Source of the DNA: Chitinophaga pinensis
GTDB taxonomy: Bacteria; Bacteroidota; Bacteroidia; 2-12-FULL-35-15
Assembly (NCBI GenBank): GCA_945885475.1
Contig: CAMCYR010000014.1
Location: 1 to 60,410 of the forward strand
Reading direction: 5' to 3'
Length of the DNA: 60,410 nucleotides
This document shows positions 9,598-41,586 of the stretch, one piece after another; the first letter of the stretch is position 1; every line of letters starts with the position of its first letter. The notes beneath the pieces are model-generated. The model did not search any database, was not told where the DNA came from, and saw only the letters and a program-made list of their open reading frames with translations. A program made the position numbers and the translations under genes.

Positions 9598-10941
9598 ATG
9601 ATACCCAAACAGCTTCCAGTCGGTAAACAGTTAGCCTATTCTTTCGGGATGATGGGCTGGAGCGTAATGGTCAATTTGATCAGTGTCATTCTGATCTACT
9701 TATATCTTCCGCCATCAGGTAGTGGTTTGCCTAATTTAATTACACAAGTATCTGTTTTTGGTATCTTTAATGTGATTGCGATCATTACTTCAGGGGGGCG
9801 GATCATTGATGCTGTTTATGATCCTTTTATTGCTCAATTCAGCGATAGCAGTGCAAATCCAAAAGGAAGAAGAATTCCATTGATGAGAGCAGCAATTCTT
9901 CCTTCTCTTATATTTTGTTTTTTTGTTTTTTATCCTCTGACGACACAAGAAAGCACGGCCAATATCGTATGGTTGGTTATTGTTTTGATCTGTTTCTATA
10001 TCTCTTCAACAACATATATTATTCCTTATAATGCTTTGTTGCCAGAGTTAGCGCCAACATCAGATTCTAAAGTTAAGTTAGCAACCTGGCAATCCATCGG
10101 ATATGTTTTCGGTATTGCTATCGCATCCAATGCATTTAATCTGACCGATCTTTTGCAACGTTCTTTCGGCTTTGAAACCCGATTAGCAGCGCTTCAGTGT
10201 ACGGTTTTATTGATGTGTATCTTAGCGGCTATTTTTATGGCAATTCCTGCTTTTGCAATTGATGAAAAAAAATATTGTATTGGAAAGCCTAGTAAAGTTC
10301 CATTAAGAGCAGCACTGAAGCAAACCTTGTCTAATAAGAATTTCTTGTTTTTTATTGTTGCAGATTTCTCTTACTTTATTGCTGTTACAATCATTACTTC
10401 CGGATTGTTATATTTTGTGAGTGTTTTATTGAGATTACCCGAAACATTAGGAAATAAATTGATGATCACGATGGTTCTTGTCTCCTTTCTTTTCTATCCT
10501 GTAGTAAATTATCTCTCTAAAAAAGTTGGTAAGAAAATACTTGTAATTGTTTCATTCCTGTTGCTTTCTGTTGTGTTTTTAGCGATTTATTTTTTAGGTA
10601 AAGGGGAGATGGACGCCTATCTTCAAATTTATTTACTGATTGTATTGGCTTCTATTCCATTGGCTTCATTGAATATTTTACCAAATGCAATTCTAGCGGA
10701 GATCATCGAAAAAGATACATTGGATACAGCAAGTAATAAAGAAGGGATCTATTTTGCTGTTAGATATTTTTTTGTAAAAATTGCACAGACATTTGGAATG
10801 GCTTTGTTTGCGATGTTTTTGCTGTATGGTAAAGATGTAGGAAACGATCTCGGAATCAGATTGTCCGGTATTCTTGGTTTTATACTTTGCCTTACTGCTG
10901 CTCTTATTTTTACGCGTTTTAAAGAAAAGGGTCCTTCTTAA
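9598..10941 (+). CDS. GPH/MFS-type transporter
   Basis: A 447-residue protein with about twelve transmembrane segments. The opening PVGKQLAYSFGMMGWSVM and the loop GRIIDAVYDPFIAQFSDSSANPKGRRIPLM match the glycoside-pentoside-hexuronide:cation symporter (GPH) branch of the major facilitator superfamily, including its conserved Asp-Pro and GRR loop. GPH proteins usually co-transport sugars with Na+ or H+, but members with other cargo exist. It converges on the lipid-modification operon with only one base between the two stop codons. GPH-like transporters are found near CFA/DUF1365/flavoprotein gene sets in other bacteria as I recall them, so a lipid-related or lipid-export role should be kept open. 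Confidence 0.88.
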   Translation: MIPKQLPVGKQLAYSFGMMGWSVMVNLISVILIYLYLPPSGSGLPNLITQVSVFGIFNVIAIITSGGRIIDAVYDPFIAQFSDSSANPKGRRIPLMRAAILPSLIFCFFVFYPLTTQESTANIVWLVIVLICFYISSTTYIIPYNALLPELAPTSDSKVKLATWQSIGYVFGIAIASNAFNLTDLLQRSFGFETRLAALQCTVLLMCILAAIFMAIPAFAIDEKKYCIGKPSKVPLRAALKQTLSNKNFLFFIVADFSYFIAVTIITSGLLYFVSVLLRLPETLGNKLMITMVLVSFLFYPVVNYLSKKVGKKILVIVSFLLLSVVFLAIYFLGKGEMDAYLQIYLLIVLASIPLASLNILPNAILAEIIEKDTLDTASNKEGIYFAVRYFFVKIAQTFGMALFAMFLLYGKDVGNDLGIRLSGILGFILCLTAALIFTRFKEKGPS

Positions 10942-10942
10942 A

Positions 10943-12178
10943 TTATCTATTTGTATTATTTGGACGTGAATAGATCATCTGCATCACATTAATGTTGCGC
11001 ATCTCGAACGCTGCTTCACAATATGAAAAGTAGTAATTCCATTTCCGAATAAAATGATCGTCAAACTTTAGTTTTTTTACTTCTGTCAAATTCTTGTTGA
11101 ATTGATCGCGCCAGATGGATAATGTTTTAGCATAATGCAATCCGATGTCTTTTAGATCAACCAACGTTAAATTCCCTGTATTGTTGATTGCTTTGTTGAT
11201 TGCCGCAACAGAAGGAAGGAGGGATCCCGGGAAAATATGCTTCTGGATCCAGTCCACTTCGCTTGATATATTTTCGTAACGTGAATCCGGACAAGTAATT
11301 ACCTGCATCGCAAGGATGCCGTCCTTCTTTAAAAGATCAGTACATTTTTTAAAGTACACATCTAAAAATTTGTGTCCGACCGCTTCCAGCATTTCAATCG
11401 AAACAATTTTATCGAACTGCCCTTCAAGTAAACGATAGTCTTTTAGTACAACCTTAATTTTATGGGAAAGTTTTTCTTTTTCAATCCGTTCGATAGCTAA
11501 TTTGTACTGTTCTTCTGAAATTGTTGCTGTTGTTACTTTACAGCCGTATTTCTTGGCGATATGAATTGCATTTCCTCCCCAGCCAGTTCCGATTTCGAGC
11601 ACATGATCTGTCGCTTGTAAATTCAATTGTTTGCACAATCTGTCATATTTTTCTTCTTGCGCTTCTTGCAATGAAATCCCTTCTTCTTTAAAATAAGCAG
11701 AAGAATAGGTCATTGACGGATCAAGGAAAAGTGCGAAAAAATCATTATTCAAATCGTAGTGTTCTGAAATGTTCTTACGTGAACCGCTTAAACTATTTGC
11801 TCTTTTGAAATGGACAACTTTGTTAAATACCTTTAGGATGTTCAATGCCAGACTTTGCGTATTATTTCCGGAAACAGTTGGCGCGTTTTCAATGTTTAGA
11901 ATTACCCATTTTATAACATCTGTAATGTTATTTGTATCCCAATCACCATCAACAAATGATTCGCCAAATCCGATATCGCCATATAATAAGCAACGTCTGA
12001 AAAAAGTAGTATTACTGATTGAAATATTTGCAACAATTTCATTCCCTCCACCGATTTGAATCGATTCACCGGATGGCATCGTAATGTTTAGGGTTCCTGC
12101 ATTCATTTTTGAAAGCATTTCCAATATCACTCTTTCGTAAAAATTTCTTTTTATGCTATTTACAATTGCTGTAGACAT
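10943..12178 (-). CDS. cfa: Cyclopropane-fatty-acyl-phospholipid synthase
   Basis: A 411-residue SAM-dependent enzyme that methylates the double bond of phospholipid acyl chains, making cyclopropane or methyl-branched products. It has the extended N-terminal domain of true CFA synthases (residues 1-130), then the SAM-binding VLEIGTGWGG (about residue 195), YSSAYF before it, and VSIEMLEAVG after it, the family's conserved Glu region. Length is a little above the E. coli enzyme. It is the last gene of the minus-strand operon, 18 bases after DUF1365. A second CFA-like gene in the same operon is shorter and distinct, suggesting different steps. Confidence 0.94.
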   Translation of the reverse strand: MSTAIVNSIKRNFYERVILEMLSKMNAGTLNITMPSGESIQIGGGNEIVANISISNTTFFRRCLLYGDIGFGESFVDGDWDTNNITDVIKWVILNIENAPTVSGNNTQSLALNILKVFNKVVHFKRANSLSGSRKNISEHYDLNNDFFALFLDPSMTYSSAYFKEEGISLQEAQEEKYDRLCKQLNLQATDHVLEIGTGWGGNAIHIAKKYGCKVTTATISEEQYKLAIERIEKEKLSHKIKVVLKDYRLLEGQFDKIVSIEMLEAVGHKFLDVYFKKCTDLLKKDGILAMQVITCPDSRYENISSEVDWIQKHIFPGSLLPSVAAINKAINNTGNLTLVDLKDIGLHYAKTLSIWRDQFNKNLTEVKKLKFDDHFIRKWNYYFSYCEAAFEMRNINVMQMIYSRPNNTNR

Positions 12179-12196
12179 ACCTGTGAACTTTTTTTA

Positions 12197-13000
12197 TTAA
12201 TATTTTCTTCTGAATACCTCTTTTTGTAACTCTTGGTCTTCACTTTTTTTATGGTAAGGAATTTTCTTTAGCCAAAGCAGTATGGCGTTCCAGTGAATTA
12301 ATGTTATGATTTTTAATGTTATGAACGGAAAACGTATACTGTACCAAGCTAAATTTAAATTGGATAATACTTTTTTTGTTCCGCTGAGTGTGCTAATGAA
12401 AAAGCGAACCTCCTTTTTATAATCATCAATTCGTATGTTTAATTTTTCATCAGGCACAGTCAGGTTAAAATCAAAATTGGTGTCGTGGTCAATAAATGGG
12501 GATACGTAAAAGTATTTAGTTGTGTTCAGGTGGAATTTATTTTCAGATAAATTGTTCCTGCTGAGCAAAAAAGGTTTTATCTCACCAAAGGTATTTCCAA
12601 TCTCAGCAACAACACAAAGTGGTAAATTCTTTTCATCAAAACAATAGTAAAATGATACCGGATTAAAATTGTATCCTAACACATTTAAATTTGTAAGTAG
12701 CATTATTTTTCCACTACCTATTTCAATATTATTTTGTGCCAAATACATGGAGATTTGCTCCTTGATATTTTTTTTTGTGTCAGGCATTTCGAGAGGAAGC
12801 TGTATATGCTCGTTATTCCTAAGGCTAAAAAAATTAAATTTATTTATACTGAACATCCATAAATGTTTTCTCAGCATATCCACTTCATCCAGATCGATAT
12901 AAAACATAAACACCTTGTAGTTGAACCTGTGTTTCTTTGGTTCAAACCGGTGATGCATCACGTTTGCTTTATAGAGACAGGAATTCATAATAGCTTGCAA
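12197..13000 (-). CDS. DUF1365 family protein
   Basis: A 267-residue protein of the DUF1365 family. The start YKANVMHHRFEPKKHRFNYKVFMFYIDLDE and the central LTNLNVLGYNFNPVSFYYCF are diagnostic: the RF..HrF.Y.vf...lDL opening and the NPVSfyyc motif. The biochemical function is not established; the family occurs almost always with an amine-oxidase-like flavoprotein and a CFA synthase, exactly as here. The ATG overlaps the 3' end of the upstream flavoprotein gene by 16 bases, so the two are almost certainly translationally coupled. Its placement argues for a step in acyl-chain modification. Confidence 0.93.
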   Translation of the reverse strand: MQAIMNSCLYKANVMHHRFEPKKHRFNYKVFMFYIDLDEVDMLRKHLWMFSINKFNFFSLRNNEHIQLPLEMPDTKKNIKEQISMYLAQNNIEIGSGKIMLLTNLNVLGYNFNPVSFYYCFDEKNLPLCVVAEIGNTFGEIKPFLLSRNNLSENKFHLNTTKYFYVSPFIDHDTNFDFNLTVPDEKLNIRIDDYKKEVRFFISTLSGTKKVLSNLNLAWYSIRFPFITLKIITLIHWNAILLWLKKIPYHKKSEDQELQKEVFRRKY

Positions 13001-14229
13001 AGGTTAACTGCAGAGGCATAAGCATCTTCGTGAAAACCATATTTAAAATAGCTTCCGCAGAAGTAAAGCGGTCCTGTTGCATTTAATTTATGGAGTTCGT
13101 CTTGTGCTTTCATCGCAGGAACATCAAATAATGGATGCTCGTATTCAATTTCTTTGATGATCTTATCTTTATCAATAGAGTCGGGGATTGCATTGATTGA
13201 AACAAAATAGTTTTTCTTTTCAGATACCCCTTGTAGTTTATTCATCCAATATATTGTGCTGGGCACTTGTATTCCATTCTTTTTTTCAATCCGATAATTC
13301 CAGCTGCTCCATACTTTCTTCGTTTTAGGCATAATAGATTCATCAGTATGAACAGTAGCGATATTTTTTTGATATTGAAAAACGGATAATAATCTTTTTT
13401 CATCAGCTGTTGGCTGCTCCAAAATTTTCAATGATTGATTGGCATGACAGGCAAATATTACTTTGTCGAAGGAGTGTTTATTTCCATCTTTTGTAATAAC
13501 AATTGCCTTGTTCTCTTCTTTCAGAACGTTTACAACGCCATTGTTGATTTGAATTTTATCTTTAAAAGGTTCGATCAGTAATTTGCGATACGATTGGCTG
13601 CCATTTTCCAGTGTATACCATTGATGCTGTGTGTCGAGTCCTAAGAATCCATGATTTTTAAAAAAGCGAACGAGTGTTACAATGGGGAAGTTCAGCATTT
13701 CTTCCATTGGTGTCGACCAAACAGCAGAACTCATCGGAATAAGATATTTCCATAGCATATCGTCCCCATAGTTGAATGCTTTGATGTATTCTTTTAAAGA
13801 ATAGTTTTCAAATTCAGGATCGTTCAGGATTTTTATGCTCTCCTTATTGAATCGTGTGATTTGAAAAAGCATTCTGATGTAGCGAATGTTGAAAATGTTT
13901 TTACGCTGTGCAAATAATCCATCTATTCCCGAACCGCAATACTCTAAACTTGTTTCGGTATGCTGAACACTAAAAGACATGTCCGTTTTTTTTATAGGTG
14001 CTTTTATCTCTTCAAATAATTTGCAAAGATTAGGATAGGTTTGGAAGTTAAATACCATGAATCCTGTGTCCATAAATACCGGTTTGCCTTCTTCATCCAC
14101 AGTTATTGTATTGGTATGTCCGCCAATATAATCAGCTTCTTCAAAAATAGTAAGGTCATACTTTTTTTGCAGCAAATGTGCACAACCCATTCCCGCAATT
14201 CCAGTTCCTATGATTGCTAATTTTTCCAT
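12985..14229 (-). CDS. Flavin amine-oxidase-like FAD/NAD(P) oxidoreductase
   Basis: A 414-residue flavoprotein. It opens with the FAD-binding Rossmann motif AIIGTGIAGMGCAHLL (residues 5-20) followed by the Glu of the beta2 strand (FEEADYIGGHTNTI), and ends with the FAD-closing YFCGSYFKYGFHEDAYASAV. The VDTGFMVFNFQTYP-like segment (here MDTGFMVFNFQTYP) is typical of the version that accompanies DUF1365 and CFA synthase. Related enzymes in Rhodobacter-type clusters take part in oxidation of methylated fatty acids; for this gene the reaction is inference. It is 19 bases downstream of the CFA-like methyltransferase and overlaps DUF1365. Confidence 0.93.
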   Translation of the reverse strand: MEKLAIIGTGIAGMGCAHLLQKKYDLTIFEEADYIGGHTNTITVDEEGKPVFMDTGFMVFNFQTYPNLCKLFEEIKAPIKKTDMSFSVQHTETSLEYCGSGIDGLFAQRKNIFNIRYIRMLFQITRFNKESIKILNDPEFENYSLKEYIKAFNYGDDMLWKYLIPMSSAVWSTPMEEMLNFPIVTLVRFFKNHGFLGLDTQHQWYTLENGSQSYRKLLIEPFKDKIQINNGVVNVLKEENKAIVITKDGNKHSFDKVIFACHANQSLKILEQPTADEKRLLSVFQYQKNIATVHTDESIMPKTKKVWSSWNYRIEKKNGIQVPSTIYWMNKLQGVSEKKNYFVSINAIPDSIDKDKIIKEIEYEHPLFDVPAMKAQDELHKLNATGPLYFCGSYFKYGFHEDAYASAVNLCKLL

Positions 14230-14248
14230 TTTATTGTTGAACTAAAAA

Positions 14249-15283
14249 TCAGGATTGTTTTTTTGTAAATAAATAATGACTCACGATCCATTCTTCACCA
14301 TTATTATATCCCCACAATTCGGCACAAGCCATGAAGAACAGCCTCCAATAAACCCACCATTTCACAGCTTGATCTTTTCCGTATGTGCTTTCAAACAATG
14401 GCATAATTTGCGATTTATTCTTATCCATATTTTGCAGCCAAGATTCCGATGTTTTGCTGTAATGTAATCCACTCACATGCCAATGTTTTTCAATACTTAA
14501 ATGCTCGTTAAAATACAAGAGTAAATCGTCGCATGGCATAATTCCTCCCGTAAAAAAATACTTACTCATCCAATCCGTTTCATCGAGTACTTCAAATTTA
14601 TAGGCAAAATCTTTGTGTGTGAAAATATGAACAAATAATTTCCCGTTTATTTTTAAGCAATCCGCTATTTTATGCATCAATTTTTGATAGTTGCGCATGT
14701 GTTCAAACATTTCAACGGATACAACTCTGTCGAATTTCTTTTCTATAGTAAAGTCGTTGATATTTACCGTAATTATAGTAAGATTTTTTATCCCACGTAA
14801 TTGCGCTTGTTCGTCAATATAGATTTTTTGAGTCTTTGAGTTTGATACGGCTGTGATGCTACTTTGTGGATATTTCTTCGCCATGTAAAGAGATAGAGAA
14901 CCCCATCCGCATCCGAGTTCCAAAATATCTTGACCGTCTGTCAATTCCGCTCGCGAGCAGGTGATTTCAAGCATGTCATTCTCAGACGTATCGATATCGA
15001 GTACTCCTTCATTCCAATAACCACTGCTGTATTTTAAATTACTTCCTAAACAAAATTTGTAAAATGCAGTAGGAACTTCATAATGTTGCTCGTTTGCCTC
15101 AGCAGTATTTATAGCAATGGGTGATTCTTTCAACTCCGCTATCAGGTTCATTAGATGAGCCTGTTGAAGTTCATCGGTTTCTTTCTTCTCCTGGTGCAAA
15201 CGTTCTTTTAACAATTTCCTGATACCCAAACGCAGAGCGAAATCAGGTACCTTGTTTTTTTCTAATAAGGAGTCGTACCACAT
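14249..15283 (-). CDS. CFA-like / coclaurine N-methyltransferase-like SAM methyltransferase
   Basis: A 344-residue SAM methyltransferase of the CFA superfamily, shorter at the N-terminus than the other copy in this operon. Its first 60 residues (MWYDSLLEKNKVPDFALRLG, then IRKLLKERL) are a helical segment like that in coclaurine N-methyltransferase-like proteins. The catalytic core is clear: YEVPTAFYKFCLG, LKYSSGYW, and SAM-binding ILELGCGWGSLSLYMA (about residue 120), then VSVEMFEHMRNY. Likely to methylate an unsaturated acyl chain or another lipid-linked substrate; the family also includes N-methyltransferases, so the acceptor is open. Part of the six-gene minus-strand operon, between DUF1295 and the flavoprotein. 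Confidence 0.9.
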   Translation of the reverse strand: MWYDSLLEKNKVPDFALRLGIRKLLKERLHQEKKETDELQQAHLMNLIAELKESPIAINTAEANEQHYEVPTAFYKFCLGSNLKYSSGYWNEGVLDIDTSENDMLEITCSRAELTDGQDILELGCGWGSLSLYMAKKYPQSSITAVSNSKTQKIYIDEQAQLRGIKNLTIITVNINDFTIEKKFDRVVSVEMFEHMRNYQKLMHKIADCLKINGKLFVHIFTHKDFAYKFEVLDETDWMSKYFFTGGIMPCDDLLLYFNEHLSIEKHWHVSGLHYSKTSESWLQNMDKNKSQIMPLFESTYGKDQAVKWWVYWRLFFMACAELWGYNNGEEWIVSHYLFTKKQS

Positions 15284-15328
15284 AGTTATATTTATGAGTT
15301 TCCGATGTTTAACAAATCGGGATTTACT

Positions 15329-16120
15329 TTATTTATTTTTTTTGAACCAGGGAATAAACACGTTGGTTGTACGCTGATATTCTTTGTAAAGTTCGCCTTT
15401 AGAACGAATAGATTGTTCCTCAGTCATGGGTATTCCGGTTACTTTGAAAATTAATAATCCAATTACAAGCGGACAAACAATAGCGATCCATCCATATGGA
15501 CTCGGGATTGCCAAAATAAATACGGAAATCCAAAGCATCAATTGAAAAAAATAGTTGGGATGACGGGAGTAATTCCAGAAGCCCGCTTCGCAAACTTTTC
15601 CTTTGTTAGAAGGATCTTTTTTGAATTGTTGCAATTGAAAGTCTGAAAGTCCCTCTCCGATTATCGCGAGGAGCCATAATCCCGCTCCGGTATATTCTAT
15701 GAATGAAAGATTAGGTTGCGGATTTATAGCGATTATGAAAAAAGGAATAGCAAGAAATACGTTCGATAATGCTTGCATTTGAAAAAACACAAAAAATTTT
15801 AAATTGGTATTTGGAGCCCATTCTGCACGTAATTGTTTGTATCGTCCTTCTTCCTGATCCAAGTGCGAACCTACCCGAATAAGCAAATATATTCCTAGTC
15901 GCAAACTCCATAATGCGGTTAAAATGCAAACCATATTTTTTCTTGCGTCCATACCATCAGCAAGAAACCCAATGACGATGGCAATAAATAAAAAATTAAA
16001 GGCCCATAGAATATCAACAATGCCTGCATTTTTGATACGATAAGCAACGATCCATGTAAGTGACATGACAGTTGAAACAACAGCAAAAGAAATGAGCGGT
16101 AATTGTATTACCTGGTTCAT
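15329..16120 (-). CDS. DUF1295 membrane protein (steroid 5-alpha-reductase fold)
   Basis: A 263-residue protein with about seven hydrophobic segments. The C-terminal half carries the family hallmark GEGLSDFQLQQFKKDPSN followed by GFWNYSRHPNYFFQLMLW, the conserved NADPH-site region shared with steroid 5-alpha reductases and isoprenylcysteine methyltransferases. DUF1295 proteins are predicted membrane-bound reductases of carbon-carbon double bonds, fitting a role next to a desaturase. Its start overlaps the desaturase stop by four bases (ATGA), showing translational coupling. The exact substrate is unknown. Confidence 0.92.
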   Translation of the reverse strand: MNQVIQLPLISFAVVSTVMSLTWIVAYRIKNAGIVDILWAFNFLFIAIVIGFLADGMDARKNMVCILTALWSLRLGIYLLIRVGSHLDQEEGRYKQLRAEWAPNTNLKFFVFFQMQALSNVFLAIPFFIIAINPQPNLSFIEYTGAGLWLLAIIGEGLSDFQLQQFKKDPSNKGKVCEAGFWNYSRHPNYFFQLMLWISVFILAIPSPYGWIAIVCPLVIGLLIFKVTGIPMTEEQSIRSKGELYKEYQRTTNVFIPWFKKNK

Positions 16121-16845
16121 TGTTTACGAATTTTAATAACTCCAATTGCGTTCAGCGCCAAAATAACAGGAAAGGTAGGGTCAAATTCAAACCATTTTCT
16201 TGAAAAATTCAAGTTATTCGGACTTTTATGATGATTGTTTTGAAATAATTCACCTAACATCAAAAAATCAATAGGAAGAGAGTTTTTACTTTTGTCGTTA
16301 TTCTCATAATTAGAATAGCCGTATTTGTGCCCGCACCAATTCACAATAGCGCCATGAACAGGTCCCATAAGGAAGTGAATCGGCAGAAGTAAATACTGCC
16401 ACAAAGAAGTAGCAAAATAAAAATAAAACAAGAAATAAAGCACTCCAAAGCCAATTCTTACAGGCCACATATCACTTATTTTATCTATTGATGGCCAAAC
16501 AGGGAAATCACCACGAAACGCTTTTTCAGGTACCACTTTTTCAGATACAAAATCGAAATATATTTTTTTTGTGTGAAGCATCATACCGAAAACATCTTTG
16601 AAAAAATGCGGTGAATGAGGGTCTTTCTCTGTGTCACTATACGTATGATGCATGCGATGTAATATGGCATATCCTCTTGGATTTAAGAAGGAAGATCCTT
16701 GCGTGAGAAACGTTAAAAAATAAAAGAATTTCTCCCAAAACGGATTCATCGTAAACATTTTGTGAGAAGAGTAACGGTGCAAGAAAAAGGTTTGACAAAA
16801 CAATGAAAGAAACCAGTGTGCAATAAAAAACAGTAAGATGTACAT
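16117..16845 (-). CDS. Fatty-acid desaturase (acyl-CoA desaturase family)
   Basis: A 242-residue integral-membrane di-iron enzyme that introduces a double bond in an acyl chain. Three histidine boxes are visible: HRYSSH (residues 24-29), HRMHH (residues 65-69, after LHRMHHTYSDTEKDPHSP), and NNHHKSPNN near residue 205. This is shorter than typical stearoyl-CoA desaturases but normal for the compact bacterial form. It is the first gene of the six-gene operon, immediately after a good Bacteroidota promoter. It would supply the unsaturated chains that the CFA-type enzymes downstream modify. Confidence 0.93.
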   Translation of the reverse strand: MYILLFFIAHWFLSLFCQTFFLHRYSSHKMFTMNPFWEKFFYFLTFLTQGSSFLNPRGYAILHRMHHTYSDTEKDPHSPHFFKDVFGMMLHTKKIYFDFVSEKVVPEKAFRGDFPVWPSIDKISDMWPVRIGFGVLYFLFYFYFATSLWQYLLLPIHFLMGPVHGAIVNWCGHKYGYSNYENNDKSKNSLPIDFLMLGELFQNNHHKSPNNLNFSRKWFEFDPTFPVILALNAIGVIKIRKQ

Positions 16846-16898
16846 AGTCGGTTTTTTTTAATAAAATTTATGTAAAAGTATTCAAATTAAAAATATAA

Positions 16899-16929
16899 CA
16901 AATTTAATGGTGAAAATGTTTTAGAGCAA
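16899..16929 (-). promoter_or_regulatory. Promoter of the lipid-modification operon
   Basis: On the minus strand, TTG (16929-16927) is followed after 20 bases by TAAATTTG (16906-16899), matching the Bacteroidota -33/-7 pair. Transcription would start near 16892, leaving about 47 bases before the desaturase ATG. Confidence 0.6.
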
Positions 16930-33614: not shown

Positions 33615-36533
33615 CTAATTTTTTTGAGAAAAAAGGTGAATAAACCCTTCCTGCTGAACCATTTTTCCATTCAAACCAGTAGCTTTCAAAACGTAGTAAT
33701 ACACTCCGTCTGTCGCAATTTTCCCGTTTTTTGTTTCGCCATTCCAGCCTCCTGTGAGGCCATTATAGCTGGCAATGTTTAATCCCCAACGATCATAAAT
33801 TTCGTAAGTGATCTCTTTGATGTTGTTGGAACTTACGATAAAGACATCATTATTACCATCGCCATTTGGGCTAAATACATTTGGAATAAAAATAGTTCCC
33901 TCACCAATTACAATGATACAATATTTTGCTGTATCGCTGCATCCTCCACTATTTGTAGAAACGAGGGTGATACAATAGTCTCCTTCATTATCATATACAT
34001 GTGATGGACTAGATAAACCCGATGTATTTGAACCGGATGTAGGATCGCCAAATTCCCAAGATGAATTTGTACTGCCTGGTGTTATATCTGTAAAATTCAC
34101 CACTGTGTTTGGTGCTACAGTTGTTGATGGAGAAAAAGTGAAATCAGCAACAGGAATTGGTGAAACGGTAATCATGTTTGAAATAGTAATGTTCCCTACA
34201 CAACCATTCGCATCAATACATTGGAGTGATACGGAATAGACACCTGCTTCTGTGTAACAATGTGTCGGTGCCGATACAAAAGACGTGTCGCCGTCACCAA
34301 ACAAATAAAGTGTGTTACTGCATATTGTACTTACAGATTCGGAGAAGTTAATACATACAGGTGCACAACCGCTGTTAATGTTTGATGTAAACGTAGGTGC
34401 TGGTGCAGCATTTACTGTGACAATTTCAGTATCAGTATCGCCACATGTTCCCGAAATACTATAGGTAATCGTAAAAGTACCACCTCCGGAAACGGATGGA
34501 TCAAATGTTCCTGTTGTACCGCTTGTAATACCTGTACCCGTCCATGTTCCACCTGCATTTGTTGCCGACATATTAAAAGGACTACCGTTCGAGCAAATTG
34601 CACTTGCTGGTAAAATAGTAGCATCAGCAACCGGCAGAACGGTCATGTTCACGGTGTCTGTTGTTCCACAGCTTCCTGGGATAGCGTATGTGATCAGGAA
34701 TGTTCCTGCTGTTGTCGGATTAAATGTTCCAGCTGTAGCACTTGTAATACCTGTTCCTGACCATACTCCTCCCGTATTTGCAGCGCTGAAATTAAATGCA
34801 GCTGATCCTTCGCAAACGGTTGGATGTGGTGTTATTGTGGAATTGATTGTGGAATAGACAGTTACTGTAACAGTATCAGTTGCTGCACATGTTCCTGAAA
34901 TATTATAAGTAATTACCTGAGAACCAACACCGGCAGTTGTTGGGTCAAATGTTCCTGAAGCACCACTTGTAATGCCTGTTCCCGACCATACTCCGCCAGC
35001 TGTTATAGCTGTTAAATTGAAGGCCGGATCCAAAATACAGACATTGGTTGGTTGATTAATGGTCGCATCAGAGCCAGATGTTACAGTAATCATCATGGTG
35101 TCAATAGCATTGCACAATCCCGCCGTTACATAGGTAATCATGTAGGTTCCTAATCCTGCAGTTCCGGGGTCAAATGTTCCTGTGGTTGTATTGGTGATTC
35201 CTGTTCCAGACCACGTGCCACCCAGTGTATCTACCGTGAGATTAAAAGGCGGTGAACTGATGCATATCGGAGGCACTGCTGTTATTTCAGGGTTGTTTCC
35301 CAAGCTCGGTGTTACCTCTACCACAAATGTAAAGCTGACAGGGCCTACACATGCAGAAATCGGCGTTCCAGAAACAGTATACGTAGTTGTGGTTGAAGGA
35401 TTAGCGATTACTGCCGGACCAGTTATCGGAGATAATCCCGTTGTAGGTAACCATGTCCAAGTATAATCATTCACCGTAACGCCATTCACAGAAATTGGAA
35501 CAGGACCTCCGCATGTTGGGATTGTATCCGTGAAGGGAGTACATACTTGCGGAGTACCAATTGTTGATCCGGGGTATGCTAAATATAATAAGTTGTTAAT
35601 TGCTTGTGTTGCAGAAGCGTCATCAAGGATGACAACAAATTTAAACACTTCAGTTGCACCAGGCGCTAAATTCTGAATTCTGTATGCGAGGGCGATTGCC
35701 TCATCAGCAAAATTACTTGCACCAACTGTTTGAACAAAACCAGCGCCTGAACCGTTCCAAATGTTTGAACCGTCTCTGTTTGAGAACCCTCCATACATTG
35801 CTCTCCAGTTTGTACCTACTGCTGCCAAACCTAAATATGACTGCGGCTGTGATGCAGGTGCAAGTGATGTGGCACTTACATGCGCAAGGTTACAACCTAC
35901 TCCAGGCTGACTAACAATCGTGTTTTGTGTTGTATAAGTAGAACTGATTGAAACGTTATTGTCCGGATCTAAATTTCTGTAATAGAAGAGTTCAGGAATT
36001 GTTGCACTTGTATTATTGGTGATTGCAACAGTTGTTGTATAAAACAAATCTGTTTCCTGAAGAAAATAATTTATTTTAAAGTGTAGATCAGTCCCACTGG
36101 TAAGGTCTCCCTCCCAGTCAGCAGAATAACAATCAAACGTTTGAGTCCAATCTGTTATTGCTCCAGGAATATTCCAAAGTGATAGGGCATTATTACTACC
36201 CGCGGCGCCACCTGTTGTCCCGATCTCTATTCCCCAGCCATTTTCAGGAGAGCCAGGCGTGAAAAAGTCCCCATCGAATGTTGCCCATAAATTGACTTGA
36301 GGATTTGCAACAAATCCAAATAGTGGATTTCCTGAGCGGTAATGCATTCCCGGAAGTGGAGGTGAAGCTGTTATACTACATCCTTCAAATCCCCCCTGAC
36401 CGTCTAATCCAATTTCTAAGCTAGTCGCCTTTATATAGGCATTTGCTCCTACTATTTGCGCTTTTATTAGGCTCACTTGGAATAATAAAATCACTAAGAA
36501 GAGTGATACGGTAAAATTGTTTTTTACTTTCAT
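33615..36533 (-). CDS. Gliding-type (type B) T9SS cell-surface protein with Ig-like and PKD domains
   Basis: A 972-residue secreted protein. A signal peptide (ending near LIKAQ) is followed by a unique N-terminal beta-rich region (about residues 30-390), four Ig-like repeats of about 75 residues (about 405-710; repeated pattern GGTWSGTGIT then GTFDP), then one or two PKD domains (FGDGDTSF, WEFGDPTSG). The C-terminus (about 885-972) has IPNVFSPNGDGNNDVF, YDRWG and DGVYYYVL, the gliding-motility-type C-terminal domain recognised by the type IX secretion system. A close paralogue of the repeat block lies in the next gene. Adhesin or matrix role is likely; substrate unknown. Confidence 0.94.
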   Translation of the reverse strand: MKVKNNFTVSLFLVILLFQVSLIKAQIVGANAYIKATSLEIGLDGQGGFEGCSITASPPLPGMHYRSGNPLFGFVANPQVNLWATFDGDFFTPGSPENGWGIEIGTTGGAAGSNNALSLWNIPGAITDWTQTFDCYSADWEGDLTSGTDLHFKINYFLQETDLFYTTTVAITNNTSATIPELFYYRNLDPDNNVSISSTYTTQNTIVSQPGVGCNLAHVSATSLAPASQPQSYLGLAAVGTNWRAMYGGFSNRDGSNIWNGSGAGFVQTVGASNFADEAIALAYRIQNLAPGATEVFKFVVILDDASATQAINNLLYLAYPGSTIGTPQVCTPFTDTIPTCGGPVPISVNGVTVNDYTWTWLPTTGLSPITGPAVIANPSTTTTYTVSGTPISACVGPVSFTFVVEVTPSLGNNPEITAVPPICISSPPFNLTVDTLGGTWSGTGITNTTTGTFDPGTAGLGTYMITYVTAGLCNAIDTMMITVTSGSDATINQPTNVCILDPAFNLTAITAGGVWSGTGITSGASGTFDPTTAGVGSQVITYNISGTCAATDTVTVTVYSTINSTITPHPTVCEGSAAFNFSAANTGGVWSGTGITSATAGTFNPTTAGTFLITYAIPGSCGTTDTVNMTVLPVADATILPASAICSNGSPFNMSATNAGGTWTGTGITSGTTGTFDPSVSGGGTFTITYSISGTCGDTDTEIVTVNAAPAPTFTSNINSGCAPVCINFSESVSTICSNTLYLFGDGDTSFVSAPTHCYTEAGVYSVSLQCIDANGCVGNITISNMITVSPIPVADFTFSPSTTVAPNTVVNFTDITPGSTNSSWEFGDPTSGSNTSGLSSPSHVYDNEGDYCITLVSTNSGGCSDTAKYCIIVIGEGTIFIPNVFSPNGDGNNDVFIVSSNNIKEITYEIYDRWGLNIASYNGLTGGWNGETKNGKIATDGVYYYVLKATGLNGKMVQQEGFIHLFSQKN

Positions 36534-36561
36534 ATTTATAATGATTATTGAAGTTGTTTTT

Positions 36562-39500
36562 TTATTTTGTATTCAGCAATTGTATAAATCCTTTTTTCTC
36601 GATCAATTTATTATTCAATGTTTTGGCATTCATAATAAAATAATAAACACCATCAGATGCGATTGTTCCACTTGTAGTGCGTCCATCCCATCCTGCTTTT
36701 GAATCATTTGTGGCTGTCCATTCAGCAATTTGTAATCCCCATCTATCGTAAACGGAACAGTTTAGTTCTTTTACAGAGCTTGTTGCGAAGTAGAATATAT
36801 CGTTTATGAGATCACCATTCGGAGTAAAAATAGTTGGAATAACAAGTGTAGCTTCATCAGCAATTGTGATACATGTACTAGTTGTGTCAGCACATCCAGC
36901 GGTGTTTGAAGAAATTAATACGATACAATAAATTCCTTCAGTTGAATAAACATGCGAATCACTCGTTAGTGTTGATGTATTACTTCCAGAGGCAGCATCG
37001 CCAAAATTCCAAACTGAAATGCCCCCGTTAGTTGAAATATCTGCAAAAGAAACGGTAGAATTTACAGGTAATGCACCCGATGGAGAAGCCGTGAAGCTTG
37101 CTATCGGGCTTGGTGAAACAGAAATCATATTGGTGATTGTTGTTGTATCACTACAATTGTTCAGATCTGTACATGTAATGGTAACGGAGTAGTTTCCTGC
37201 ATTTGTGTAACAGTTCGTTGCAGTTGAAGAAGTGGAAGTGTTGCCATCTCCGAATTCAAATAACATCGAACTGCAGGTGTTTGAAGCCGCTTCTGTGAAT
37301 GTTATGCAAACCGGCGCACAACCCGCTGTAACATCCGATGTAAAGGATGGAGTTGGTAATGCGTTTACTGTAATGTTTTGATTAGCAGTATCCCCGCATG
37401 CACCTGAGATCGTATATGTAATTGTATTTGTTCCCGCGTTTGCCAGCGAAGGATCGAATGTTCCGTTAATTGGATCTGTTATACCTGTCCCACTCCAGGT
37501 TCCACCCGCAGTTGCAGCGGTTAAATTGAACACTGTTGCATTGGCACATATCGGAGATACAGCGATTATACTCGCATTGGCTCCGGAAGTAACACTGATA
37601 GAAACGGTATCCGTTGCACCACAGCTTCCTGAAATTGAATAGGTAATTATATGTGTCCCGATTCCAGCGATACTAGGATCAAATGTACCTGAAGCTGCTG
37701 ATGTTATTCCCGGCCCTGTCCATGTCCCACCTGCTGTTGCTGCAACTAAATTAAATAGTGCTGCACCGCTACAGATAGTGGCTGGTTGAACGATTGTTGC
37801 ATCTGCAGATGAATTCACTGTTATAAGCACCGTATCTGTTGCACCGCAGGTTCCTGAAATTGAATAGGTGATAATATGTGCTCCTATGCCAGCAGTCGCC
37901 GGATCGAATGTGCCGGTACTTGTATTGGTTATACCTGTTCCTGACCATGTTCCTCCGATGGTACTAGCAGATAAATTTATCGGACTAGCACTTACACAAA
38001 AAGACGATAAAGGAGTGATGGTTGCATCTGCATTTGGAGTAACAGTTACCAATGCTGTATCTGTGTTTCCACAAGAACCTGAAATGGTGTATGTAATTAT
38101 AAATGTTCCGGTACCTGATGTTGACGGATCGAATGTTCCACTTGCTCCAGATGTTATTCCCGTTCCCGACCACGTTCCACCAGCCGTTACAGCACTAAGG
38201 TTGAAGGCAGGTGAACCTATACAAATAGGAGCAAGGCTGCTTATGGTTGCATCTGCTAACAATGTTCCAGTAATCGTAACGGTAGAAGTAGAAGCAACAC
38301 AAGGCGCATTAGCAATACTCCATTGAAAAACATTTGCTCCGATACCCAATCCTGTAATTCCGGAAGTCGCTGAAGAAGGTGTAGTAATTGTTCCCGCTCC
38401 GCTGATCAATGTCCATGTACCCGTTCCTGTCGTTGCCGCATTCCCTGCAAGCGTTGCAGTTGTTCCACACACAGTTTGAGCCGTTCCGGCATTCGCTGTT
38501 GATGGTGCTTCAAGTCCTGTAATCGTAACGGTAGAAGTAGAAGCAACACAAGGAGCATTATCAATACTCCATTGAAAAACATTTGCTCCAATACCCAATC
38601 CTGTAATTCCGGAAGTCGCTGAAGAAGGTGTAGTAATTGTTCCCGCTCCGCTGATCAATGTCCATGTACCGGTTCCTGTCGTTGCTGTATTCCCTGCTAA
38701 AGTAGCAGTTATTCCGCACACAGTTTGAGCTGTTCCAGCATTCGCCGTTGTTGGTGCTGCGACGCCAGTAATCGTAACGGTAGAAGTAGAAGCAGGACAA
38801 GGTGCACTGGTTATAGACCATTGAAAAACATTTGCTCCAATACCCAATCCTGTAATTCCAGAAGTCGCTGAAGAAGGTGTAGTAATTGTTCCTGCTCCGC
38901 TGATCAATGTCCATGTACCGGTTCCTGTCGTTGCTGTATTCCCTGCTAAAGTAGCAGTTGTTCCGCAGACCGTTTGAGCCGTTCCGGCATTCGCTGCTGA
39001 TGGAGCTGCAACTCCTGTAATCGTAACGGTAGAAGTAGAAGCAACACATGGCGCATTAGCAATACTCCATTGAAAAACATTTGCTCCGATACCCAATCCT
39101 GTAATTCCGGAAGTCGCTGAAGAAGGTGAAGTGATAATTCCCGCTCCGCTGATCAATGTCCATGCACCTGTTCCAGTCGTTGCTGTATTTCCTGCAAGCG
39201 TTGCAGTTGTTCCACAAACAGTTTGAGCTGCTCCAGCATTCGCCGTTGCTGGTGCGGCAACGCCAGTAATCGTAACGGTAGAAGTAGAGGCTGGACAAGG
39301 TGTACTGGTTATAGACCATTGGAAAACATTTGCTCCGATACCCAATCCTGTAATACCGGAAGTAGCTGAAGAAGGTGTAGTAATAGTTCCTGCTCCGCTG
39401 ATCAATGTCCATGTTCCCGTGCCTGTCGTTGCTGTATTTCCTGCGAGAGTAGCAGTTGTTCCACACACAGTTTGTGCTGTTCCGGCATTCGCCGTTGATG

Positions 39501-41586
39501 GACCGCCTGTACTAGTTATTGTTACCTGTGTAGATGATGTTCCACAGGGAGGATTTGTAATTGTCCATTGAAAAACATTCGCTCCAATTCCAAGTCCTGT
39601 AACAGTAGACGTTGGAGAAGTTGATGCAGTGATTGTGCCGGTTCCACTCACTAAGGTCCATGTTCCAGTTCCTGCTGTTGGAGTATTTCCGGCAAGAGTT
39701 GCAGATGTCGCACAAACGCTTTGATTTGGTCCAGCTAAGGAAGTTGTAGGAGAAGTATTGACTGTTACAACAACAGGTATTCTGTATGTTCCTGGACAAA
39801 ATCCAACATAATAAGTAGTTGAGGTAGCTAAGACAGGGGTTGTAAAAGTTGAACCAGTGCCAATGGATGTTCCACCAGTTGCTGCTGCATACCAGTTAAT
39901 TGTTGCGACAATTGCACCGTTAATAGTAGCAGTTAAGGTTGCGGTATTTCCGGAGCAGATCGTTGCATTTGCTGCAGAAATAGTGTCTACCCGTATAATT
40001 GCTTGATTCGTTAGACCTGCACCACCCATTGTTGCTCCATTTGGAGTAAACTCAGTCAACTGAGGTGATTGTGTAATTCCGTTTATTCCACCGAGTGCTT
40101 GTTGCGATCCAGCAGCAGGCCCGCTTGTTAAGCCGATATATCCACCGCCACCACCACCACCAGGTCCTTCAGTTTCTCCTAACCCAACAGTGCCTTGTAA
40201 TTGATTTCCGCCAATTCCTCCATTCGCTTTAATAAAAATTCCTGAAACAGCTCCAACAGAATTTATTAAAATTGTTCCGCCAGCACCTGCTCCACCGCCA
40301 GCATCTTTTCCTGCATTAAATCCCGCAATGTTAGTACTTCCGCCATTAGCTCCATTTGAAATGATTGAATCGTTTCCACTTCCTGTTATTGTGCCGTAGG
40401 ACGTAATATAAATAATTCCACCGCCGGCACCACCAGCGCCACCTTGGTTGTTGTCTTGCTCACCAGCGCCACCGCCACCACCTATATAAATTCTTCCAGT
40501 AGAATAATCCAATGGTCGTCCACCTAATCCACCTAAGTTATACCTGTAGGATCCACCCCAAGCATTTGTAACACCAATCGTTCCTGGTCCCAGCGTAGTT
40601 GCATTTTGGTTTGAACTAGAAAACGAATATCCACCTCTTCCGCCTCCAGAAGAGGTGCTTGTTGAAAAGGATGCCGATTCTAAATTCCATGCAGTAGTCC
40701 AGCCAGCAACTGTGTTATTAGGGTTTCCTTGTCCTGTCCATGCTGCAAGACTTGCATTTCCGCCACCGCCACCTCCGCAGTTCCAAACGTTTCCTCCACC
40801 ACCGCCATTTGCAGGCGCAGCTCTACAAAATTTCCCACCGTATGGTGTATAATCAGTATCATAACCCGCAACACTTTCTCCTTTGTTGGTTCCAACATCT
40901 AGGCTGACACAGGAATAGAGCCCTGTTGTTGTTCTTCCCGTTGTTGTGAAAAGTGCACCACCTCTGAATCCTGTTCCTGTTGTACTTATTTTTCCTCCGG
41001 CGGTAATCGATGTGTTTCCGTATACTTCAACAGCCAATACTCCACCAGTTGTTCCATTCCAAGCTTGACATGATAAAACTCCTGGTGATTGAATAAGTAG
41101 TGTGTTGTATCTCGGTATTCGAATTACTTGAACTTTACCAGCTGCGGTGTAACTGTTTGTTAGGCCGCAATCAACAACGATAGATGTTCCGCCCGCTGGA
41201 ACTGCATTAACTTGGCAGTATTCGAATTTTCCGCAATTGTTATAGTTTGTAACTGCACCCCAGGTTGCATTATTGGGATTACTAATCGTTGGTGTAAAGG
41301 CATCGGGTGCACCCAAAATAGTTGCTCCTTGCATTTGAATAATCATAATTAAATCTCCGGGTGCGAGTGTATTTCCTGCGCCAAAACGTGAATTTGCATT
41401 TAATCCACTGGCTGCTACAGTAATCGTTGTGGCTCCGGCAGCAGCATTTGCTGTTAATGTGGTGTATTCGTTAACAATTGTGTTAAGCGCATTAATAGTT
41501 TTATTTCCATCAATCCCTCTTTGGCCAAAGGATGACGATGTTGAAAAACAAAAAACGAAAAGTAAAAAAGAGTAGAATATTCTCAT
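36562..41586 (-). CDS. Giant gliding-type T9SS protein with glycine-rich region and 83-residue tandem repeats
   Basis: A 1674-residue secreted surface protein. After the signal peptide come a beta-rich N-terminal region and a glycine-rich stretch (about residues 210-530, many GGGGG runs). Six 83-residue repeats follow (about 610-1105; core TATLAGNTATTGTGTWTLIS, then GLGIGANVFQWSI), five of them nearly identical. Next are four Ig-like repeats of the family shared with the neighbouring gene (about 1105-1400; GGTWSGTGIT, GTFDP), a PKD domain pair (FEFGDGNTST; WNFGDAASG) and the gliding-type C-terminal domain (IPTIFTPNGDLINDIF, YDRWG, DGVYYFIM). It stops 28 bases before the paralogue begins, so the two probably share transcription. 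Likely an adhesin; homology elsewhere is unknown to me. Confidence 0.93.
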   Translation of the reverse strand: MRIFYSFLLFVFCFSTSSSFGQRGIDGNKTINALNTIVNEYTTLTANAAAGATTITVAASGLNANSRFGAGNTLAPGDLIMIIQMQGATILGAPDAFTPTISNPNNATWGAVTNYNNCGKFEYCQVNAVPAGGTSIVVDCGLTNSYTAAGKVQVIRIPRYNTLLIQSPGVLSCQAWNGTTGGVLAVEVYGNTSITAGGKISTTGTGFRGGALFTTTGRTTTGLYSCVSLDVGTNKGESVAGYDTDYTPYGGKFCRAAPANGGGGGNVWNCGGGGGGNASLAAWTGQGNPNNTVAGWTTAWNLESASFSTSTSSGGGRGGYSFSSSNQNATTLGPGTIGVTNAWGGSYRYNLGGLGGRPLDYSTGRIYIGGGGGAGEQDNNQGGAGGAGGGIIYITSYGTITGSGNDSIISNGANGGSTNIAGFNAGKDAGGGAGAGGTILINSVGAVSGIFIKANGGIGGNQLQGTVGLGETEGPGGGGGGGYIGLTSGPAAGSQQALGGINGITQSPQLTEFTPNGATMGGAGLTNQAIIRVDTISAANATICSGNTATLTATINGAIVATINWYAAATGGTSIGTGSTFTTPVLATSTTYYVGFCPGTYRIPVVVTVNTSPTTSLAGPNQSVCATSATLAGNTPTAGTGTWTLVSGTGTITASTSPTSTVTGLGIGANVFQWTITNPPCGTSSTQVTITSTGGPSTANAGTAQTVCGTTATLAGNTATTGTGTWTLISGAGTITTPSSATSGITGLGIGANVFQWSITSTPCPASTSTVTITGVAAPATANAGAAQTVCGTTATLAGNTATTGTGAWTLISGAGIITSPSSATSGITGLGIGANVFQWSIANAPCVASTSTVTITGVAAPSAANAGTAQTVCGTTATLAGNTATTGTGTWTLISGAGTITTPSSATSGITGLGIGANVFQWSITSAPCPASTSTVTITGVAAPTTANAGTAQTVCGITATLAGNTATTGTGTWTLISGAGTITTPSSATSGITGLGIGANVFQWSIDNAPCVASTSTVTITGLEAPSTANAGTAQTVCGTTATLAGNAATTGTGTWTLISGAGTITTPSSATSGITGLGIGANVFQWSIANAPCVASTSTVTITGTLLADATISSLAPICIGSPAFNLSAVTAGGTWSGTGITSGASGTFDPSTSGTGTFIITYTISGSCGNTDTALVTVTPNADATITPLSSFCVSASPINLSASTIGGTWSGTGITNTSTGTFDPATAGIGAHIITYSISGTCGATDTVLITVNSSADATIVQPATICSGAALFNLVAATAGGTWTGPGITSAASGTFDPSIAGIGTHIITYSISGSCGATDTVSISVTSGANASIIAVSPICANATVFNLTAATAGGTWSGTGITDPINGTFDPSLANAGTNTITYTISGACGDTANQNITVNALPTPSFTSDVTAGCAPVCITFTEAASNTCSSMLFEFGDGNTSTSSTATNCYTNAGNYSVTITCTDLNNCSDTTTITNMISVSPSPIASFTASPSGALPVNSTVSFADISTNGGISVWNFGDAASGSNTSTLTSDSHVYSTEGIYCIVLISSNTAGCADTTSTCITIADEATLVIPTIFTPNGDLINDIFYFATSSVKELNCSVYDRWGLQIAEWTATNDSKAGWDGRTTSGTIASDGVYYFIMNAKTLNNKLIEKKGFIQLLNTK
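38271..39740. repeat. Tandem 249-bp coding repeats in the giant T9SS gene
   Basis: The string TAATCGTAACGGTAGAAGTA begins at 38271, 38520, 38769, 39018 and 39267 (all exactly 249 bp apart), and a diverged sixth copy starts near 39516. Each unit encodes 83 residues, so the frame is kept. Copies differ mainly in short patches. They are a probable site for recombination and length change. Confidence 0.95.

Follow-up and report, generated by a model that had tools for sequence, protein, structure and literature searches.

A six-gene operon in Chitinophaga pinensis with a predicted complete pathway to dimethylated furan fatty acids

The window (the whole stretch of 60,410 nucleotides that was analysed) carries on its minus strand, from 10943 to 16845, six ORFs that are intact by domain calls and the ORF list. 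In order of transcription they encode a fatty acid desaturase (FA_desaturase, 242 aa), a DUF1295 protein, a CMAS-like methyltransferase (344 aa), an Amino_oxidase flavoprotein, a DUF1365 protein and a second CMAS protein of 411 aa (Table 1). A preliminary description had picked out this compact unit and its domains; the ORFs are intact where it placed them and their order is kept in relatives. It had also given two overlaps. The ATGA shared by the desaturase and DUF1295 genes at 16117-16120 stands, whilst the 16-base overlap between the flavoprotein and DUF1365 genes, which requires a TTG start at 13000 (ORF 12197-13000), is less likely than a second ATGA overlap at 12985-12988, where an ATG start gives an ORF of 263 aa (12197-12988). 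The remaining gaps are 45, 19 and 18 bases. The single promoter proposed earlier has a plausible candidate 5' of the desaturase: TTTG (16902-16899), N18 and TACTTTTA (16880-16873), a -33/-7 type element of what we take to be the Bacteroidota promoter type, lying in a region similar to the equivalent position in the nearest relatives. Against the nearest relative, dN/dS is 0.04-0.08 in all six genes, which are thus under purifying selection; given these values and the recurrence of the gene order in many families of the class, the operon is not a chance assembly.

Table 1. Features of the operon and its 3' neighbour, with predicted roles
Feature	Position	Strand	Basis
Convergent GPH-family (MFS_2) transporter, separated from the operon end by 1 base	9598..10941	+	domain; adjacent in several families
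UfaM-type methyltransferase (first methyl; predicted), not a cyclopropane synthase	10943..12178	-	37-39% to Rhodopseudomonas UfaM, signature, tree
UfaO-type DUF1365 protein (O2-dependent furan ring formation; predicted)	12197..12988	-	PF07103 match; 32% identity; ATGA overlap
UfaD-type flavoprotein, amine-oxidase fold (second double bond; predicted)	12985..14229	-	34% to Rhodopseudomonas UfaD, gene order
FufM-type SAM methyltransferase (second furan ring methyl; predicted)	14249..15283	-	43-45% to Rhodopseudomonas FufM; tree
DUF1295 membrane protein, steroid 5-alpha-reductase/ICMT-like; constant fufM partner	15329..16120	-	domain and linkage
Short membrane fatty acid desaturase, 242 aa; predicted monoene supplier	16117..16845	-	domain; three His boxes
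Candidate Bacteroidota sigma-A promoter	16873..16902	-	sequence and resemblance among close relatives

The operon is flanked by the GPH transporter on one side and a universal stress protein on the other. A convergent GPH transporter is often found at the operon end in the loci of relatives, and it is possible that it is a functional partner encoded outside the operon transcript. The R. sphaeroides ufaD-ufaO operon likewise includes a gene for a GPH symporter, RSP_1089 (PMC7074977), which is dispensable for furan synthesis there (PMC7380195). Elsewhere in the window, the region 33615-41586 holds a pair of very large ORFs (972 and 1674 aa) whose GC content, ~0.41-0.46, exceeds the usual 0.36 of the window.

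Four enzyme families of the operon are those of bacterial furan fatty acid synthesis. The reactions are known from R. sphaeroides and R. palustris (Lemke 2020, PMC7380195): UfaM acts on cis-vaccenoyl chains to give an 11-methyl-alkene, UfaD converts this to a methyl-diene, UfaO, a DUF1365 protein, makes the furan using O2, and a second methyl then comes from FufM. The first three enzymes are enough for the monomethyl furan, and addition of FufM gives the dimethyl form, as established in vivo and partly in vitro, and R. palustris CGA009 has three CFA-type proteins (PMC7380195). Our comparison used six Rhodopseudomonas genomes of the R. palustris group, reached via a light-harvesting peptide; CGA009 itself lies outside this set, so that orthology to the assayed proteins rests on position and similarity. 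Three CFA-type proteins are present in four of the six, two in a fifth (G103) and one in R. rhenobacensis.

The flavoprotein, DUF1365 and 411-aa genes match Rhodopseudomonas ufaD-ufaO-ufaM in identical order. The flavoprotein is 34% identical to UfaD over 410 aa, with its gene adjoining ufaO in both organisms, and the DUF1365 protein, which matches PF07103 with E=6e-72, is 32% identical to UfaO; a single-sequence AlphaFold model of the latter has a pLDDT of 39. We assign the two proteins as a predicted UfaD and a predicted UfaO. A CFA-family methyltransferase beside a flavoprotein also recalls bfaAB (PMC5660069), and the reductase-like character of DUF1295 could be fitted to a BfaA/BfaB route to 10-methyl branched (tuberculostearic) chains, in which methylenation would be followed by reduction by the flavoprotein or DUF1295. 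Such a route has no use for UfaO or FufM, and the flavoprotein is of the amine-oxidase/UfaD type and is paired with UfaO by gene order; judged on these points, it is very improbable.

The 411-aa protein had been described as a full-length CFA synthase, a label that its active-site signature and its place in the tree lead us to replace with UfaM-type methyltransferase. It carries the signature SIEMLEAVG and MQVIT. All UfaM-context proteins have SIEMxEAVG (or close) and a Gln at the position of E. coli H266, whereas SVGMFEHVG and LHTIG (or close) occupy the same sites in cyclopropane synthases; the hallmarks of the synthases are thus missing from the window protein, with Gln for H266 and EAVG for EHVG. 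The bicarbonate that takes the methyl proton during ring closure is bound in E. coli Cfa by H266, the His of LHTIG, and a Gln in place of this His would fit a methyl-branched product instead of a ring. The phylogeny of the CFA-type proteins that had been proposed as a check gives, with 62 rows, a single clade (support 99/96) containing the window protein, the other DUF1365-linked CFAs and Rhodopseudomonas UfaM; the RPA3082-like paralogue and the enzymes of E. coli, Lactobacillus, Aquifex and mycobacteria fall outside it. In a smaller set of 40 rows, a grouping of the window protein with the cyclopropane synthases is not rejected by the AU test (p 0.13). This result, the Pfam CMAS match and an alignment of 335 aa with E. 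coli Cfa at 38% identity would suit a cyclopropane operon, with the 411-aa protein as a true synthase and the other genes modifying or protecting the ring. We regard that reading as distinctly unlikely, since both diagnostic sites agree with Rhodopseudomonas UfaM and the cyclopropane signature is retained in the RPA3082-like paralogue, the larger tree sets the protein with UfaM, and ufaD and ufaO adjoin its gene.

For the 344-aa protein, earlier described as a short CFA-like methyltransferase, a lipid-acting role is favoured, but the description left unnamed the second ring methylation that would lead to a dimethyl furan. The protein is 43-45% identical (E 1e-87 to 1e-92) to one Rhodopseudomonas paralogue, against 25-27% for the remaining CFA-type paralogues. 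This closest paralogue is encoded 3' of a DUF1295 gene and not beside DUF1365, and its low identity to UfaM is the ground on which it is assigned as FufM. The bacterial FufM clade has support of 97/92 in the 62-row tree and 80/84 in the 40-row set. These comparisons identify the 344-aa protein as a predicted orthologue of FufM, the furan C-methylase for the dimethyl form.

The preliminary description had named a placement of this protein with N-methyltransferases acting on non-lipid substrates as grounds for giving up its reading, and a likeness of that kind does exist in part: the closest solved structures are plant benzylisoquinoline N-methyltransferases (41.5% to 6gkv). The operon might then make only a monomethyl furan, the 344-aa protein N-methylating a non-lipid amine like its plant relatives, of which coclaurine N-methyltransferase shows that same 41.5% identity; a grouping of Bacteroidota FufM with the plant N-methyltransferases is also left unrejected by the AU test (p 0.30, 40-row set). 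However, Rhodopseudomonas FufM is closer (45.5%), Rhodopseudomonas shares the DUF1295-FufM pairing, and a homologue of the 344-aa protein accompanies UfaO in every UfaO-positive Bacteroidia genome examined (33/33), so that we consider N-methylation unlikely. FufM is preferred because the DUF1295 linkage is shared across Rhodopseudomonas, other proteobacteria and most of the Bacteroidia examined.

The extent of this linkage is considerable. The window DUF1295 is 35-40% identical to the DUF1295 that precedes Rhodopseudomonas FufM, and a DUF1295 gene precedes fufM in Rhodopseudomonas, Shinella, Rhizobium, Burkholderia, Cupriavidus, Acinetobacter and most of the Bacteroidia examined. The pairing is kept where the pair sits far from ufaD-ufaO-ufaM, the two being on different contigs in one genome (G147), and R. 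rhenobacensis, which is without FufM, is also without a strong DUF1295. An exception is a Legionella lytica plasmid (L081 11741-12514) on which DUF1295 adjoins ufaD-ufaO-ufaM; a search of this plasmid found no FufM. DUF1295 thus follows FufM and not the furan core, a tie that is undescribed in the literature as far as we have searched it, and the operon points to DUF1295 as an unassigned partner of FufM. We suggest only tentatively, and with some doubt, that DUF1295 is a missing enzyme of dimethyl-furan metabolism, maybe a membrane reductase acting on the dimethyl-furan acyl chain or on the ene-dione formed by its oxidation, and that the desaturase sets an undescribed ring position. If so, DUF1295 would recycle or detoxify spent antioxidant.

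The desaturase has the His boxes HRYSSH, HRMHH and HNNHH, which are invariant in 17 homologues. The genome (G000) has four desaturase-family genes including this one, which cannot be the sole desaturase of the cell; the presence of three others makes it likely that the operon copy is dedicated rather than a general source of monoenes. In several loci (L221 13853-14182, L033 15147-15479), a DUF1475 membrane protein of ~110 aa is encoded between the desaturase and DUF1295.

Gene order in related genomes had been put forward as a check, and the order desaturase-DUF1295-methyltransferase-flavoprotein-DUF1365-CFA does repeat within the genus as well as in several further families of the class. Of 99 relatives, 20 have DUF1365 and 22 have a close homologue of the 344-aa protein; UfaO and FufM are together in 20, FufM is alone in two (G086, a 72% complete genome, and G075) and UfaO is never alone, a co-occurrence for which Fisher's test, which ignores kinship, gives p 5e-19. 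In an even draw of the class, UfaO is present in 35 of 396 Bacteroidia genomes and 17 of 198 genera. Thirty-three of these 35 genomes (all but G198 and G241) were screened for FufM and every one has it, either in the DNA retrieved around the locus or at another genomic site; genomes with a split gene set retain it as well (9/9 tested). Some ten Bacteroidia loci (e.g. L029 10441-11583) have a membrane-anchored alpha/beta hydrolase of BD-FAE type between fufM and ufaD, and our guess is that it acts in lipid release. In G075 (L070 7110-10917), desaturase-DUF1295-FufM-UfaD is kept and the last two operon genes are gone: DUF1365 was not found genome-wide and there is no UfaM 3' of UfaD, a gene set unexplained by a strictly linear pathway.

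The window operon shares with R. palustris and R. sphaeroides the four enzyme families, the flavoprotein-DUF1365-CFA order and the adjoining of DUF1295 and FufM. Its leading desaturase is not part of their arrangement, and whereas ufaM of R. sphaeroides and fufM of R. palustris sit elsewhere in the genome, here all the genes are in one operon. Another parallel is a cluster on an Acinetobacter plasmid (NZ_CP090068.1, L076), where the same six families (desaturase, FAD, DUF1365, CFA, DUF1295 and FufM) form one run, although in another order, with a longer and distant desaturase (30%), the run being preceded by a lipocalin and followed by a two-component system. This and other Acinetobacter plasmids also carry a photolyase and a lipocalin near the six-gene set, and the presence of the set on plasmids suggests that it is mobile between bacteria. 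In Halomonas, ufaM, ufaD and ufaO are consecutive, as in the core here, and Halomonas UfaM expressed in E. coli yields 11-methyl-octadec-12-enoate; FufM, DUF1295 and a desaturase, all present in the window operon, are not mentioned in the portions of that report available to us (PMC12089945). A set matching that of the operon occurs even in a eukaryote: in Chlamydomonas, the SAK1 regulon contains CFA1, the coclaurine-N-methyltransferase-like CFA2, DUF1365 and DUF1295, co-induced by singlet oxygen (PMC4067076), although the gene identifiers there are scattered.

As the preliminary description had said, furan fatty acid genes of proteobacteria are linked to oxidative stress (PMC7380195, PMC7074977). 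Those of R. sphaeroides are under RpoE/ChrR, and sigma/anti-sigma pairs lie beside the furan genes in Shinella and Rhizobium loci; in contrast, no sigma/anti-sigma (RpoE/ChrR-type) genes are found among the flanking neighbours of the window operon. Among the Bacteroidia loci fetched, an RskA-type anti-sigma gene beside the operon is seen only in a distant relative, G064 (L032 11604-12446), where its position 5' of the operon hints at ECF control.

We propose, with a probability of about 0.8, that the operon encodes a complete pathway to dimethylated furan fatty acids. The substrate would be the acyl chains of membrane phospholipids. The short desaturase would introduce a cis double bond into a saturated acyl chain, and UfaM would move the methyl of SAM onto this double bond, giving, in an enzyme that departs from the usual bicarbonate site, a methyl-alkene and not a cyclopropane. 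UfaD would then desaturate the adjacent position to form a methyl-diene, UfaO would insert an oxygen from O2 and close the furan ring, and FufM would attach the second ring methyl, with DUF1295 working with this FufM branch. That the same chemistry operates in this organism, and that the desaturase feeds the pathway, is inferred from sequence; the moderate identities to orthologues of the characterised enzymes (32-45%) count against the proposal. Since the position of the ring would follow the double bond set by the desaturase, neither it nor the chain length can be read from the sequence. The preliminary description had included a furan among the possible products of an operon acting on unsaturated chains, and the presence of all four furan-pathway enzyme families agrees with this; its wider formula of a methylated, oxidised or furan product is too broad, as the predicted UfaD and UfaO would make the route furan-specific.

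In fish and plants, furan fatty acids occur as antioxidant lipids; their known bacterial sources, as far as the literature was searched, are confined to some proteobacteria (PMC3528120, PMC7380195), and a limited search of titles and abstracts gave no report of them from Bacteroidota. The enzyme families are known. Within the same literature, three things are new: the occurrence in this phylum, the DUF1295-FufM tie and the gathering of all the genes, desaturase included, into a single operon. The SIEMxEAVG/Gln signature could serve to tell UfaM from mis-annotated cyclopropane synthases. If the proposed pathway is correct, the operon is an expression-ready six-gene cassette, and part of the Bacteroidota, some 9% of the sampled Bacteroidia genomes, would be candidate producers of dimethyl furans, lipids that would probably act as membrane quenchers of radicals and singlet oxygen.
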